DNA from: Parcubacteria bacterium C7867-002
GTDB taxonomy: Bacteria > Patescibacteriota > Minisyncoccia > Phycocordibacterales > PALSA-1337
Reading direction: 5' to 3'
DNA length: 33,611 bases
NCBI GenBank assembly: GCA_001189105.1
Contig: LFCL01000021.1
Location: 1 to 33,611 of the forward strand
This document shows, one piece after another, positions 25,354 through 33,212 of the stretch. Both the position numbers and the translations under genes were made by a program. The stretch's first letter is position 1. Each line of letters begins with the position of its first letter. The notes beneath the pieces were generated by a model. That model did no database searches, was not told the DNA's origin, and saw only the letters and a list, made by a program, of their open reading frames with translations.

Positions 25354-27090
25354 ATGGATGTATATAAGAAACTCATCGCAAGTCTCATCGAAGTTACCAC
25401 AAGGATAGGCCTCGGGGTCGACGCATCATCTCTCCGTCTCGATTATCCAGAAAATCCAGAACATGGTGACTATTCCACGAACGTGGCGTTGGCATATGCC
25501 AAAAAGGCTGGAACCAACCCTCGCGCTCTGGCAGAAAAGATCGTCGAAGAATTTACCAAGAATCAGCCCGATTTTATCGAATCAGTCAGTATCGCTGGTC
25601 CTGGTTTTATTAATTTCAAAATCAAGGATCACGTATTTGTAGAAAACAATATCAGCATTGCCCAGGGTGGGGCAAAATACGGATGGACATCAGAGGATGC
25701 TGGCAAACAGGTCATGGTTGAATACACCGACCCAAATCCGTTCAAGGTTTTTCATATTGGTCACCTCATGTCCAATGCAGTTGGCGAGTCTATTTCTCGA
25801 TTGATCCAATCTTCCGGTGCTGAGGTTGTTCGCGCCTGTTATCAAGGAGATGTAGGTTTGCATGTGGCGAAGACGATCTGGGCGATGAGTCACAAGATGC
25901 AAGAATCGGGATTCAAGATTCAAGAGGGCGCAACAATCAAAGAAAAAGTTCAATTTTTAGGAGAGATGTATGTGAAAGGTTCTCAAGCATATGAAGATAA
26001 TGCTGATGCACAAAAAGAGATTGCGGCGATCAATAAGCAGATTTTTGAAAAATCAGATCCGGCTATTAATGAGCTGTATCAAGCAGGAAGGAAGTGGAGT
26101 CTGGAATATTTTGATAGTATCTATGCCCGCCTCGGAACGAAGTTCAACACCTTCTTTTTTGAAAGTGAAGTTGCAGATTTGGGTATCAGTATTGTTAAAC
26201 AGTTTCTTGGTCAGGTCTTTCAGGAAAGTGAAGGTGCAACTGTGTTCAAAGGAGAAGATCATGGAGTTCACACACGCGTATTCATTACTTCGAATGGATT
26301 ACCAACCTATGAGACCAAAGAATTGGGTTTGAATACCGAGAAATTTAAGAAATATCCGAAGCTAGATCAGTCGGTGATTATCACTGCCAATGAGCAAAGT
26401 GATTATTTCAAAGTGCTGCTCAAAGTTTTTTCTTTGGTCAATCCTGCAATTGCCGAGAAAACGAAACATATGAGTCATGGGATCCTGCGTTTTGCTTCAG
26501 GCAAAATGTCTTCTCGAAAAGGGAATATTATTTCTGCTGAGTCGCTCATCGATGATATCAAGTCCTTGGTTCAAGAAAAGATTGCTGGTCGTGAATTTAC
26601 TCCAGCCGAAGCAGATGAAGTAACGGATGAGATTGCTATTGCAGCTATCAAGTACACGATTCTTCGTCAGTCGATCGGTAGCGATGTGATATTCGATTCA
26701 GCTACCTCAGTCTCCTTTGAAGGGGATTCTGGTCCGTATCTCCAGTATTCAGCTGTACGTGCTGCAGCAGTGTTGGAAAAAGCAAAGAGTGAAGGAATCG
26801 AAATGACTTCGACTGTTCCAGCCTCAAACACTTCAGTTTCTCATTTGGAAAAATTACTGACTCGTTTTCCTGACATCATCCATCGCGCCCGCAGTGAATT
26901 TGCTCCACAGCAAGTAGCAGGGTATCTCATAGCACTCTCGAGTGCCTTCAATGGTTTCTACGCTTCGCATATTATTGTTGATAAAAAAGATCCACTCTCA
27001 TCGTATCGTGTCGCAGTCACCAAAGCGTTTCTCACCACCATGACAAATGGGTTGTGGATTTTGGGAATAAAGGTGCCAAGGAGGATGTAA
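25354..27090 (+). CDS. argS: Arginine--tRNA ligase
   Basis: VEYTDPNPFKVFHIGHLMSNAVGESISRL, GILRFASGKMSSRKGNII, DALR-type C-terminal domain. Confidence 0.96.
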   Translation: MDVYKKLIASLIEVTTRIGLGVDASSLRLDYPENPEHGDYSTNVALAYAKKAGTNPRALAEKIVEEFTKNQPDFIESVSIAGPGFINFKIKDHVFVENNISIAQGGAKYGWTSEDAGKQVMVEYTDPNPFKVFHIGHLMSNAVGESISRLIQSSGAEVVRACYQGDVGLHVAKTIWAMSHKMQESGFKIQEGATIKEKVQFLGEMYVKGSQAYEDNADAQKEIAAINKQIFEKSDPAINELYQAGRKWSLEYFDSIYARLGTKFNTFFFESEVADLGISIVKQFLGQVFQESEGATVFKGEDHGVHTRVFITSNGLPTYETKELGLNTEKFKKYPKLDQSVIITANEQSDYFKVLLKVFSLVNPAIAEKTKHMSHGILRFASGKMSSRKGNIISAESLIDDIKSLVQEKIAGREFTPAEADEVTDEIAIAAIKYTILRQSIGSDVIFDSATSVSFEGDSGPYLQYSAVRAAAVLEKAKSEGIEMTSTVPASNTSVSHLEKLLTRFPDIIHRARSEFAPQQVAGYLIALSSAFNGFYASHIIVDKKDPLSSYRVAVTKAFLTTMTNGLWILGIKVPRRM

Positions 27091-27422: not shown

Positions 27423-30400
27423 ATGGCCGATTCTGCCGCAGAACACAAGGAGAAGGTAAAAAGCCCTCATGCTGAACGTGAGGAGCGGATTTTGGCATCC
27501 TGGAATGAGAAGGGCATATTCAAGAAGTCACTTCAAAAGAACAAGGAGTCTGGCAAAGAATTCGTCTTCTACGAAGGCCCTCCTACAGCCAACGGTCTCC
27601 CGGGCATTCACCACCTCGAAGCACGTGCGTTCAAAGATGCGATTCCGCGTTATAAAACAATGCGTGGTTTTCATGTACGTCGCAAAGGAGGATGGGATAC
27701 TCACGGTTTGCCGGTAGAGCTGCAAGTCGAAAAAGAATTGGGCTTGAAGTCCAAAAAGGAAATCGAAACCTACGGCATCGAAAAATTCAATGAAAAGTGT
27801 AAGGACAGTGTCTGGAAATATGTTCGCGAATGGGAAACCTTCACCGATCGTATGGGATATTGGGTAGACCTCAAGGATCCGTATGTGACATACAGACCAA
27901 ACTATATCGAATCACTCTGGCACATCATCAGTAAAGTCGATAAAGATGGCTTGCTCTACAAAGACTACAAAGTGGTTCCGTGGTGTCCGCGTTGTGGAAC
28001 AGGACTTTCATCTCATGAATTGGCCCAGGGCTATCAGGATGTAAAAGATTTGTCGGTGTATGTGAAGTTTAAGATTCAGGATGCACGATTCACGAATGTA
28101 CATTTCTTGGCATGGACAACGACGCCATGGACTCTTCCAGGGAATGTTGCACTCGCTGTCGGAAAAGATATTGACTATGTACAGATAAAAACAGGGGAGG
28201 CTTCTCTTATTCTCGCCAAGTCACGACTTTCAATTGTAAAAGACCCGTATGAAATAGAAAAAGAATTCAAAGGCTCCGAATTGGTTGGGGTAAGTTACGA
28301 ACCCCTGTACCCATTTCTCAAAGACAATGTAGCTGGTGCAGAAAAAGAGAAGCTGGTAAACGCATTCAAAGTATATGCGGCGGATTTTGTGACCACCGAA
28401 GATGGGACAGGCATCGTGCATATCTGTTCCATAAAGAAAAGCACGAGCACACCTATCCTCATTGTTGGCGCTGTAAAACTCCACTCATCTATTTTGCGCG
28501 CGACTCGTGGTATATCCGCATGTCCGAACTTCGCAATAAGCTCGTTAAGGAAAATAAAGATATCACATGGCAACCAGCTCATATCAAAGATGGTCGTTTC
28601 GGTGAGTGGCTCAAGGAAGTAAAAGACTGGGCAATTTCCCGTGAGCGTTACTGGGGTACACCATTACCAGTGTGGGTTTGCGAAACATGTAACAAACGAA
28701 AGACGGTCGGCTCTGTGGCAGAAATTGCACATAAGCCGCGTAATACATACGTAGTCATTCGTCATGGGCAAGCAGAAAATAATGTCCGCGGTATTTTGTC
28801 TGGTACTGCGAATGCCCCGCACCATCTGACCGAGAAAGGGAAGCAGCAAGTTGTTGATGCTGCCAAAGAACTTTCTGGTACGAAGTTTGATCTGGTATTT
28901 GTCTCACCGTTTGTACGCACCCAAGAAACAGCTGCAATCTTGCAGGAACATCTTGGGTTTGCAAAAGAAATCATGCATACCGACGAACGTATTCGTGAAT
29001 TAGGGACAATCTCTGGGGATGGAAAACCGGTATCAGATTTCATCAAGGGATTCAAAGGCCACGATCGTTTTACCCAGGCTCCGGAGGGTGGAGGGGAGAC
29101 GTTTGCTGACATTAAAAAACGTATGGGTGATTTCCTCTATGATATTGACCAGACGTATGAAGGCAAGACTATTCTGATTGTTACGCACGAAACACCGGCA
29201 TTTTTGTTATTTGCAGCTGCTCATGGATGGAATCGTGCGCAGTCTATGCATATGCGTGCTGATATTGATTTTATAAACAATGCGCAAATTCGCGAATTGG
29301 ATTTTTCCATTGTTCCTCATAATCATGAATACGAACTCGATCTCCATCGTCCGTATATCGATCAGGTAAAACTCTCATGTGATTGTGGTGGGGACATGAA
29401 GCGCGTCAAAGAAGTCATGGACGTCTGGTTCGATAGTGGGGCAATGCCGTTCGCTCAGGAGCACTATCCGTTTGATGTAAAGAAAAAGGGATTCTTTTCT
29501 GGAGACACATTGCCATATCCTGCCGACTTTATTTGCGAAGCTATCGATCAGACTCGTGGCTGGTTCTATACGCTCCATGCTATCGGTACACTCATGGGTC
29601 GAGGTAAGGCATTTAAAAATGTCGTTTGTCTCGGACACATTCTCGATGCCGAAGGGAAGAAGATGAGTAAGTCGATCGGCAACGTCATCAATCCGTGGGA
29701 CATGATGAATACCTACGGTGCAGATGCTTTGCGCTTCTGGATGTATTCCGTCAATCAGCCAGGTGATTCAAAAAACTTCGATGAGAAAACCGTTGATGAA
29801 ATAATTAAAAAAGTATTCAATTTGGTCACCAACGTTACGTCGTTCTATAACATGTATGTTACGGGCGATGTGAAGATGTCTACCGCATCGCCACATGTCC
29901 TCGATCAATGGATCATCGCGCGTATGCACGGACTGATTAACGAAGTTACGACTGGTTTGGATGCATATTTATTCCTTGAACCAACTCGTGCAATCCGCGA
30001 TTTTGTAGCCGACCTTTCTCAGTGGTACGTTCGTCGATCACGTGACCGATTCAAGGATGGAGGAGAAGATACCGATCATGCATTACAGACAACTCGATAT
30101 GTTCTGACCACACTCTCAAAAGTAATGGCTCCATTTACACCGTTTTTTGCTGACTTTATATATGCAGAAGTGAAGGGTGAAAAGGAAAGTGTTCATTTGG
30201 AAGAGTGGCCGACTGCAAAACTTCCTGATCAAAAAATTTTTACTGATATGCAAACGGTCCGTGAGCTCGCTTCAAAAGGTCTCGAAGCTCGCATGAAGGC
30301 AAAGATAAACGTTCGTCAGCCGCTCGCTACGCTCAAGGTTAAAAAGCCGTTGATGCTTTCGCATGCACATGTTGATCTCATCAAAGATGAAGTAAACGTT

Positions 30401-30670
30401 AAAGAAGTTATTGTTGATACTTCAATTGCTACAGATGTTGAGTTGGATGTGAACATCACACCGCACCTCAAAGAAGAAGGTGATCTTCGTGAATTTCTCC
30501 GTAAGATTCAGGATATGCGTAAAGAAAAGAATTTGTCTGTGGGAGATGTGGCAGTACTCACGGTTCCACCTGAGATGAGGGATTTGGCGATAAAGTACGA
30601 ACCTGAAATCAAAAAGATAACAAATGTATCGGGTATAGAGTTTGGTTCGGTGCTCGACGTGAGAACATAA
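27423..30670 (+). CDS. ileS: Isoleucine--tRNA ligase, reading frame interrupted near 28424 (split in ORF track), with an inserted histidine-phosphatase domain
   Basis: PTANGLPGIHHLEARAFKDAIPRYKTMRG (HIGH region), ISRERYWGTPLPVWVCETC, DVWFDSGAMPFAQEHYPF, EGKKMSKSIGNVINPW (KMSKS). Frame 0 up to GTGIVHI, then frame 2 from LFHKEKHEHTYPHCWRCKTPLIYFARDSWYIRM. Confidence 0.93.
28742..29310 (+). other. Histidine phosphatase (PGAM-like) domain embedded in ileS
   Basis: YVVIRHGQAENN, HHLTEKGKQQV, LVFVSPFVRTQETAAIL, DERIRELGTISG, GGGETFADIKKR, ILIVTHETP. Confidence 0.92.
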
Positions 30671-31227
30671 TGCACACTATCACCACCACTCCCGGTTTTA
30701 TTTTGAGTGCTCGACCATACAGCGAAGCGGGGAAGATGTTTTCGATCTTTACGCGCGACCTGGGGTTAGTCTTGGTGGCTGCTCAAGGGATTCGTCTGGA
30801 GAAATCAAAATTGCGGTATCATACGCAGGAATATTCATTCGGCACATTCTCGGTGGTCCGGGGAAAAGAATTTTGGAGACTGACCAATGCTGATTCAACT
30901 GAATATAGGCTTGATATGGTGTTAGTACGTATCGCTACATTACTCAAGCGTCTTCTACAAGGGGAAGAGCCACATCCTGAACTCTATGATTGTCTGGAGG
31001 TAACTGCACGTATGAGCAAAACAATTTCAGCCGCACGATTACCTGAATTGGAATCACTGACCGCATTGCGCATCCTCAATCTTCTTGGTTACATCGGTAA
31101 CAACGAAGTGGTTCGTCCTTTTATCCAGTCTCTCGATATTACCGAAGAATTACTTTCTCAGTTGGCACCATTGCGACTCAAGGTGAATGGAATTATTAAT
31201 GTGGCACTGCAAGCTTCGCATCTGTAG
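30670..31227 (+). CDS. recO: DNA repair protein RecO-like
   Basis: TTPGFILSARPYSEAGKMFSIFTRDLGLVLVAAQGIRLEKSKLRYHTQEYSFGTFSVVRGKEFWRLTNAD; overlaps the ileS stop. Confidence 0.82.
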   Translation: MHTITTTPGFILSARPYSEAGKMFSIFTRDLGLVLVAAQGIRLEKSKLRYHTQEYSFGTFSVVRGKEFWRLTNADSTEYRLDMVLVRIATLLKRLLQGEEPHPELYDCLEVTARMSKTISAARLPELESLTALRILNLLGYIGNNEVVRPFIQSLDITEELLSQLAPLRLKVNGIINVALQASHL

Positions 31228-31268
31228 GAGCCTAGTTCAACAGGCTCCTTGTGGTACAATGTGTACAT

Positions 31269-33212
31269 ATGGCTTTAGAGGACGAAAGTCGCATTGAACA
31301 GTTAAAAAAGTCGCTCTACTCGCGGTCGGCGCCCGATGTGCGCACCCGTCGCAAATTACGTTTCTTTAATAACGGATCCGACGTAAAAACATCCTGGGAA
31401 CGTCCACCCGAAGAGGAACCGGAACCAGTTGTTCTGAACCAGGAGTATAAAGAAGAAAAAGTCACCATGTCATTCCTCAGTAAACTTCTCATCGCTTCTG
31501 CACTCTTTTGTCTCCTCGCGGTAGGTACGGGAGCATTTCTCTTTTTCCGTGGAGCAAGCCTCATTTCCGGAGATAATATCGATATCGTCATCAATGGGCC
31601 CGTATCTGTCTCTGGCGGGGAAGTTGTTTCATTCGATGTAAAAGTTTCCAATAAGAACACGGTAGATCTTCAAGTTGCAGACCTTTCGGTTACATTCCCG
31701 GACGGCACCACAGATCCTACTGATCCTGCAAAAGAACTCACAAGCTTCCGTGAGCTTTTGGGAGATATTCCGGCTGGCCGTTCCGCAAATAAGAAAATAG
31801 AGGCAATCATTTTCGGAGAAGAGAATATTCAAAAACAAATCGAAGTATTGGTAACATATTCCGTCAAAGGTTCAACTGCTGTGTTTACCAAGAGCAGAAC
31901 CTACGATGTACTCATTAGTTCATCACCGATTAGCATGAGCGTAAATTCGTTTACCGAGATCACGTCTGGTCAGGAGTTTGATTTCGATATAGAGGTAAAA
32001 TCCAATTCAAGCGAGACGCTCAAGAATATCCTTGTTCGTGCAGAATATCCATTTGGATTCACATTCCGTTCTTCTGAGCCAAAGACATTGGCAGGCAATG
32101 CAGTGTGGAAGATCGGCGACATTCCAGCAGGGGGTACGCGCAAGATCAAGATCCGTGGTGTCGTCGAAGGGGAGAATACTGATATTCGAGTCTTCCGCTT
32201 CAATATAGGTGCTCAAAGTTCTCGCGATGCTGAAGAGATTGGTACCGAGTATGCCCGTGTCGAACGTGAATTGGCCATTCAAAAGCCGTTCGTATCAGTC
32301 GAAATTTCTGCCAATAGCAATGAACCAGAGAAAGAGTACATTGCCACATTTGGCGAATCAACACGCGTTGAAATATCTTGGTTCAATAATCTGCCTGTAG
32401 CTATTTCTAATATGCAAATTATCGCAAAGCTCTCGGGTACTGCGTATGACAAGAACACGGTTCAGCCTGATTTGGGTAACTTCCGTTCGGCCAATGATGA
32501 AATTGTCTGGAATCAGATTTCAGTACCAGAACTTGGTTCGGTACGAGCAGGTGATAGTGGCAAGGTTTCCTTCACAGTTGTTCCGACAAATAAAAATCCA
32601 GGTTCTGCATCCGCGACAAATCCGTCTATGGCAATTAGTGTCAGTGTTTCCGGGAATCGTACCCAAGAATCAAGTGTACCTGAGACACTGAGTTCGACTG
32701 CCGTAAAAAACATCAAAGTCGCTTCCAATGTCAGTTTGTCCGGTCGCGTGGTGCGTACTGTCGGTCCATTTACCAATACCGGACCGATTCCTCCGAAGGT
32801 TGAACAGAAGACAACCTACACGGTTATATGGAGTGTGGATAATGCTTCGAATGCAGTAAACAATGCTCAGGTGACTGCTACCTTGCCAGCACATATACAA
32901 TGGCTTGGAGTCATCAGTCCTACCACAGAAAATGTGAGTTACAATCGTAATACGGGTATGGTCACGTGGGATATAGGAAGTATCGGTGCCAATACTTCAG
33001 GTTCTACGCGTCGCAAAGAAGTTAATTTTCAAGTCGCTCTTGAGCCAGGAGTAAATCTGGTGGATCAGGCCCCGATCGTGGTTGATCAGGCGTTATTGAC
33101 GGCTATCGATGAGTTTACGGGTGCAGCTTTGGAAAGTATGCAGGATTATATAACGACTCGATTTAGTACGGATCCTGCCTACAAAGAAGGGGATGAAAAG
33201 GTGGTCAGGTAG
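31269..33212 (+). CDS. Large single-TM surface protein with DUF11-like/Ig-like repeats
   Basis: N-terminal cytoplasmic tail, one TM helix, then repeated beta-rich domains (VSVSGGEVVSFDVKVSNKN, ITSGQEFDFDIEVKSNSSETLKN, ATLPAHIQWLGV...GMVTWDIGSIGANTSG). Confidence 0.78.
   Translation: MALEDESRIEQLKKSLYSRSAPDVRTRRKLRFFNNGSDVKTSWERPPEEEPEPVVLNQEYKEEKVTMSFLSKLLIASALFCLLAVGTGAFLFFRGASLISGDNIDIVINGPVSVSGGEVVSFDVKVSNKNTVDLQVADLSVTFPDGTTDPTDPAKELTSFRELLGDIPAGRSANKKIEAIIFGEENIQKQIEVLVTYSVKGSTAVFTKSRTYDVLISSSPISMSVNSFTEITSGQEFDFDIEVKSNSSETLKNILVRAEYPFGFTFRSSEPKTLAGNAVWKIGDIPAGGTRKIKIRGVVEGENTDIRVFRFNIGAQSSRDAEEIGTEYARVERELAIQKPFVSVEISANSNEPEKEYIATFGESTRVEISWFNNLPVAISNMQIIAKLSGTAYDKNTVQPDLGNFRSANDEIVWNQISVPELGSVRAGDSGKVSFTVVPTNKNPGSASATNPSMAISVSVSGNRTQESSVPETLSSTAVKNIKVASNVSLSGRVVRTVGPFTNTGPIPPKVEQKTTYTVIWSVDNASNAVNNAQVTATLPAHIQWLGVISPTTENVSYNRNTGMVTWDIGSIGANTSGSTRRKEVNFQVALEPGVNLVDQAPIVVDQALLTAIDEFTGAALESMQDYITTRFSTDPAYKEGDEKVVR

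Follow-up and report, generated by a model that had tools for sequence, protein, structure and literature searches.

A histidine-phosphatase domain embedded in the isoleucyl-tRNA synthetase of a Parcubacteria bacterium and its relatives

The analyzed stretch of DNA (hereafter the window) comprises 33,611 nucleotides of Parcubacteria bacterium C7867-002 (contig LFCL01000021.1) and carries, between positions 25354 and 33609, a row of argS, ileS, recO (30670-31227), a gene for a DUF11-repeat protein (31251-33212), and the apparent start of glyS. The argS gene, an open reading frame at 25354-27090 on the + strand encoding arginyl-tRNA synthetase, is the upstream neighbor of ileS; argS was near ileS in 55 of the 80 related loci listed, and recO was also found near ileS in many relatives. 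The N-terminal half of ileS (27423-28424, + strand; TIGR00392 positions 7-330, E 1.6e-112) encodes the N-terminal part of the catalytic core and most of the CP1 editing domain, and was 70% identical to that of L032 (JAQBQT010000017.1), an intact insert-bearing relative with which the window ileS was compared. The C-terminal half (28424-30670, + strand; TIGR00392 positions 393-500 and 490-851, PF08264, and PF19302) encodes the end of CP1, an insert, the KMSKS motif (29660-29674, + strand, located by alignment to L032), the anticodon domain, and the C-terminal domain. A GIHH sequence at 27603-27614 (+ strand) represents the non-canonical HIGH motif (GXHH) of type-2 isoleucyl-tRNA synthetase (IleRS), and together with KMSKS and the PF08264 anticodon domain it provides the signature of an IleRS. 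The motif also places the protein in the GXHH subgroup of type 2, and the nearest solved structure of the relative is likewise an IleRS2. Against the MupA/MupB resistance IleRS model, the best score was only 379.3 bits, compared with a threshold of 1900. GXHH cores are common in these Patescibacteria, alongside HXGH cores within the same order.

Comparison with L032 and two other relatives (L033 and L034) revealed a break at 28424-28425 (+ strand). About 60 codons that would encode the end of the editing domain are absent here, and the reading frame shifts; the N-terminal open reading frame (27423-28622) is in a different frame from the C-terminal part (open from 28253). The preliminary description had taken the flanks of the insert to be intact, which needs correction, as ileS has lost both sequence and reading frame at 28424. 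Because the gene is split by the break and by the insert, its best single piece scored 374.6 bits with TIGR00392, below the full-length threshold of 621.4 bits, which intact relatives with an insert exceed once their pieces are combined. A second IleRS was not found in the window's assembly. Considering that IleRS is essential, we regard a truly dead gene as less likely than an assembly error or a minority deletion. The break lies outside the insert, and the insert itself is unaffected.

The insert is a 189-residue histidine-phosphatase domain at 28742-29308 (+ strand). Profile searches assigned it to PF00300 (histidine phosphatase branch 1) at 103.4 bits, where the cut-off is 21.7 (E 3e-31 in the whole-genome search), and it was the sole PF00300 match found in the 632-kb assembly, which is approximately 90% complete. 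The domain shares one frame with the downstream IleRS half and lies between CETC (a CxxC motif, 28679-28690, + strand) and CDC (a CxC motif, 29378-29386, + strand), the first and second halves of a zinc knuckle, which we take to correspond to the second zinc site of the Thermus enzyme. Where relatives have no insert, a linker of roughly 20 residues connects the two flanks. The active-site motifs, all on the + strand, comprise RHG (28760-28768), whose catalytic His is the predicted phosphorylation site, the phosphate-pocket Arg (R59 of the domain, 28916-28918), the proton-donor Glu (E86, 28997-28999), and the second catalytic His (H149, 29186-29188). AlphaFold modeled the window domain with a pLDDT of 94.9 (90 for the intact relative L032), and the fold matched PspA, PhoE (Foldseek TM 0.82-0.84), GpgP, and CobC. 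The profile score, the four active-site motifs, and the alpha/beta fold thus agree in assigning the domain to branch 1 of the histidine phosphatase superfamily. The proposal of the preliminary description, an internal, in-frame phosphatase insertion in IleRS with all four motifs in place, was borne out. None of the observations that it named as refuting was made, as the join recurs in relatives, homologous insertions proved to be abundant, and the catalytic His and Arg do not vary among related IleRS inserts.

Genome searches revealed the extent of this distribution. A query with the domain matched 192 of 197 genomes of the same order, and the best 150 of these 192 matches, one per genome, lay in frames of at least 656 aa, mostly about 1150-1250 aa. 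In a phylum-wide survey of IleRS in 126 nearly complete genomes, the synthetase was interrupted at the same site (ileS model position ~496-513) in all nine genomes of the window's own class and in 12 others, with a histidine phosphatase present in all 21 interrupted proteins, and most other surveyed IleRS were ordinary and uninterrupted. Three genomes of the own class from outside this survey (G532, G459, and G515) had an insert-free IleRS in the split form described below. Within the order, 28 genomes had a weak or no phosphatase match, six of which possess a full-length uninterrupted IleRS, suggesting that the phosphatase function can be lost; in three of these six, phosphatase matches were absent or only marginal. 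In a seventh of these 28 genomes (G138), the uninterrupted IleRS match ended before the end of the model. Divergent inserts of the same order still resembled histidine phosphatases in all 13 cases examined. The nearest named relatives, among the matches listed, were Candidatus Parcubacteria and related Patescibacteria, and a scan of public genomes yielded, among the matches listed, Patescibacteria plus one 0.4-Mb MAG labeled Spirochaetia. The IleRS-phosphatase contig of this MAG (L058) may belong to a mislabeled Patescibacterium.

The insertion is also found in valyl-tRNA synthetase (ValRS) of several lineages, in which a histidine phosphatase was detected at the matching site in five loci (L120, L121, L122, L135, and L155) and at a similar position in L131 (1195-5037, + strand). 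In addition, some synthetases harbored more than one phosphatase, including the ValRS of L171 (875-4708, - strand) with two in tandem, the IleRS of L124 with two, and the IleRS of L123 (1667-6382, + strand) with three in 1572 aa. Other enzymes were occasionally added as well, as evidenced by a GNAT domain plus phosphatase in the IleRS of L125 (2638-6990, - strand), and by the ValRS of L130 (1327-5157, + strand), which combines a histidine phosphatase with a serine hydrolase and, in its N-terminal half, a HAD domain. A single genome (G241) holds both the L125 IleRS and the L171 ValRS. Elsewhere, a C-terminal histidine phosphatase was found on an MFS-type transporter (L132, 3185-5056, - strand). 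In two IleRS inserts (L211 and L215), about 30 cap residues are gone and the catalytic motifs are kept.

Alignment of 112 related IleRS inserts showed that R7, H8, G9, R59, E86, and H149 are identical in all of them, against a mean column identity of approximately 45%. Only nine of the 189 columns were invariant, and these include all five tested catalytic residues (R7, H8, R59, E86, and H149; hypergeometric P = 7e-8). For the pairs in which it was computable, dN/dS of the insert (0.07-0.20) resembled that of the core (0.09-0.14), and the insert is under purifying selection. The insert is very likely catalytically active. In 88 of the 112 inserts, the residue next to the second His is acidic (THE/THD). 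Among the ValRS inserts, RHA replaces RHG in a few, and in L155 (2026-5004, - strand) the second catalytic His aligns to Ser, so that this insert is possibly a dead copy. Beyond the catalytic and structural residues, the pocket and cap are little conserved, which argues against one shared specific substrate, and the variable cap would fit a broad or lineage-dependent one.

To trace their histories, the synthetase core and the insert were compared as separate trees. Two IleRS core types occur in the group, namely A (GXHH, as in the window, about a third) and B (HXGH), and these split once, with 100% support, on both the pre-insert and the post-insert core tree. Only one A/B change is thus needed on each core tree, whereas the insert tree requires 14, at least five of them forced by well-supported branches, and an AU test rejected type A as one insert clade (log-likelihood difference 107.7, P = 9e-69). 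Similarly, the identity of the N-terminal core was about 0.62 within types and 0.48 between them, while that of the inserts was 0.37-0.43 within and 0.39 between. In these analyses, the window's insert was placed separately, and the first core tree was built without the C-terminal half of the window ileS. As the insert tree does not follow the A/B core types, the core and the insert have repeatedly recombined, with the phosphatase kept or regained. Mapped onto a 66-protein core tree, insert presence changed 10 times, with at least seven changes forced, and a single clade of all IleRS inserts was rejected more weakly (AU P = 0.01). The phylogenies indicate that the phosphatase has been gained more than once in evolution; an exact count of insertion events is not given, because many deep branches of the insert tree are poorly supported. 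A single origin tied to one IleRS type is ruled out by the conflicting core and insert trees.

Further information came from loci in which the two proteins are separate. Two loci, L148 and L149, have a stand-alone phosphatase gene of the insert's kind immediately flanked by argS and by an ileS that lacks the insert, and L151 shows nearly the same arrangement; the related stand-alone phosphatases of L150, L152, and L153 are encoded away from ileS. Both the split argS-phosphatase-ileS loci and the fusion support a functional link between the phosphatase and IleRS. The preliminary description had gone further, proposing a phosphatase step coupled to aminoacylation or editing and acting on a small phosphorylated molecule, a tRNA end, or an adenylate-related compound. 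A coupling to aminoacylation is likely in view of the indirect support from the retention through core replacement, the recurrence in ValRS, and the split loci, and neither tRNA ends nor adenylates are singled out by these data.

Taken together, we favor, as on balance somewhat probable, an active small-substrate phosphatase tethered to the isoleucine and valine synthetases, which would clean up a small phosphorylated compound at amino acid activation. The insert, which occupies a surface zinc knuckle in type-2 IleRS and, in other lineages, in ValRS, would be a phosphomonoesterase closest to PhoE and PspA rather than to the mutases. It would most likely follow the standard two-step chemistry, in which the His of RHG accepts the phosphate group, a proton comes from Glu86, and attack by water frees the phosphate. 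A small phosphorylated substrate is favored, as the matched phosphatases (PspA, PhoE, GpgP, and CobC) act on such compounds. The target could be a compound that arises at, or interferes with, the activation of isoleucine or valine, with AMP or a phosphorylated substrate analog as first candidates, by way of a guess, and tethering would hold the clean-up activity at the synthetase. A broader and distinctly more tentative reading is that Patescibacteria possess a phosphatase-dependent step in the formation of Ile- and Val-tRNA, that is, an in-cis clean-up or proofreading beyond CP1 that would have been repeatedly acquired, passed between IleRS and ValRS, and kept through core replacement.

Several other explanations were weighed against this tethered clean-up phosphatase. 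Mupirocin itself contains no phosphate, which counts against the idea that the insert protects its host by inactivating natural IleRS or ValRS inhibitors with a phosphate or with aminoacyl-adenylate mimicry, like drug-modifying enzymes placed in the drug target. The near-universal presence across an order would also be atypical for a resistance gene, and the hosts of the phosphatase include GXHH and HXGH cores alike. Such protection nevertheless draws some support from the rare addition of other modifying enzymes to the same synthetases (the GNAT of L125, and the HAD and serine hydrolase of L130), and from the hosts being type-2 IleRS, of which roughly one in three bears the GXHH motif linked to mupirocin hyper-resistance in IleRS2 (PMC10485003); overall, it appears unlikely. 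A passenger with a housekeeping job unrelated to the synthetase, lodged in a tolerated insertion hot spot, is comparably unlikely. The site also takes GNAT and hydrolase domains, a short linker suffices at this position in IleRS lacking the insert, and histidine phosphatases are abundant in these genomes, all in keeping with a passenger. A hot spot in which any domain fits is, however, weakened by every large insert of the phylum survey (21 of 21) including a histidine phosphatase, and the retention through core replacement, the recurrence in ValRS, and the argS-phosphatase-ileS form would be hard to obtain by chance.

Action on tRNA, for example stripping a 3'- or 2'-phosphate from damaged ends of tRNA-Ile or tRNA-Val before charging, would explain the attachment to two tRNA-binding enzymes at a matching loop. 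The nearest solved relatives act on small molecules, however, the cap is variable, and conserved non-catalytic surface residues were not seen in the insert alignment, such that a tRNA substrate seems improbable. Even less credence is due to the insert being the cofactor-dependent phosphoglycerate mutase of the cell, moonlighting on IleRS. This idea derives from dPGM_arch being the best NCBIfam match and from the domain being the only PF00300 match in the genome, but the score of 85.6 bits is far below the family cut-off of 225, the genome has its own cofactor-independent mutase (iPGM), and the nearest structures are phosphatases. Moreover, 16 of 60 genomes of the order exceeded the iPGM_N cut-off and most of the remainder lacked this domain, with the insert present in both groups; a glycolytic role is thus disfavored. 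Finally, the window ileS does have a break, which might bring to mind a misassembly that joined part of ileS to a phosphatase gene, though this break lies at 28424 and outside the insert. The same in-frame insertion recurs in at least 80 loci on named, independent public contigs and in at least 150 genomes of the order, which effectively rules out a local assembly join.

Both parts of the protein belong to known families, and what appears to be undescribed is the way they are combined, the reappearance of this combination in ValRS, and its retention when the core is replaced. In the open-licence literature, where absence is not proof, no description was found of an IleRS or ValRS fusion with a histidine phosphatase or of domain insertions in CPR aminoacyl-tRNA synthetases, a 2026 survey of domain insertions mentions no phosphatase, and the statement of the preliminary description that the fusion has no described function still holds. 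Enzymes built into synthetases usually signal quality control, and here a second, chemically different enzyme is found in two related synthetases across a large part of a major, little-understood bacterial radiation, with reduced genomes of about 0.6 Mb in which few spare genes remain. The insert thereby offers a testable handle on an unrecognized translation-linked reaction in Patescibacteria (CPR). Furthermore, its history is separate from that of the essential host enzyme, and annotators and tree builders should be aware that IleRS cores and inserts recombine.

Among known systems, the broad-specificity phosphatase PhoE/YhfR (1ebb, 1h2e) and the metal-independent phosphoserine phosphatase PspA (4ij5, 4ij6) are the best matches of the insert in sequence (E 8e-28 and 5e-27) and in fold, and the insert shares all their catalytic residues; it differs from them in its identity of only 22-25%, and in being embedded in a synthetase rather than free. 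The residue after the second His is usually acidic in the insert, whereas it is Gly in many relatives. For the host enzyme, the full-length model of L032 matched the type-2 IleRS of Priestia megaterium (8c8u; TMq 0.71, TMt 0.80) and also that of Thermus (1ile). The type-2 enzymes (8c8u/8c8v, 1ile) have the same core, KMSKS, and C-terminal arrangement, and the GXHH of the window is as described for IleRS2 (PMC10485003), but the protein studied here has about 190 extra residues forming a complete phosphatase between the zinc-knuckle halves, and the window copy lacks the end of the editing domain and is shifted in frame. A precedent for an IleRS with an extra small-molecule enzyme is the NCBIfam family NF040702 ('ileS with N-acetyltransferase domain'); the window protein is far below the cut-off of this model, and its added enzyme is a phosphatase. 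The CP1 editing domain of Ile/Val/LeuRS is itself an enzymatic domain inserted in the synthetase core, where it removes unwanted products (PMC7373986). The phosphatase insert differs from CP1 in fold, chemistry, and insertion site, and intact relatives carry both.
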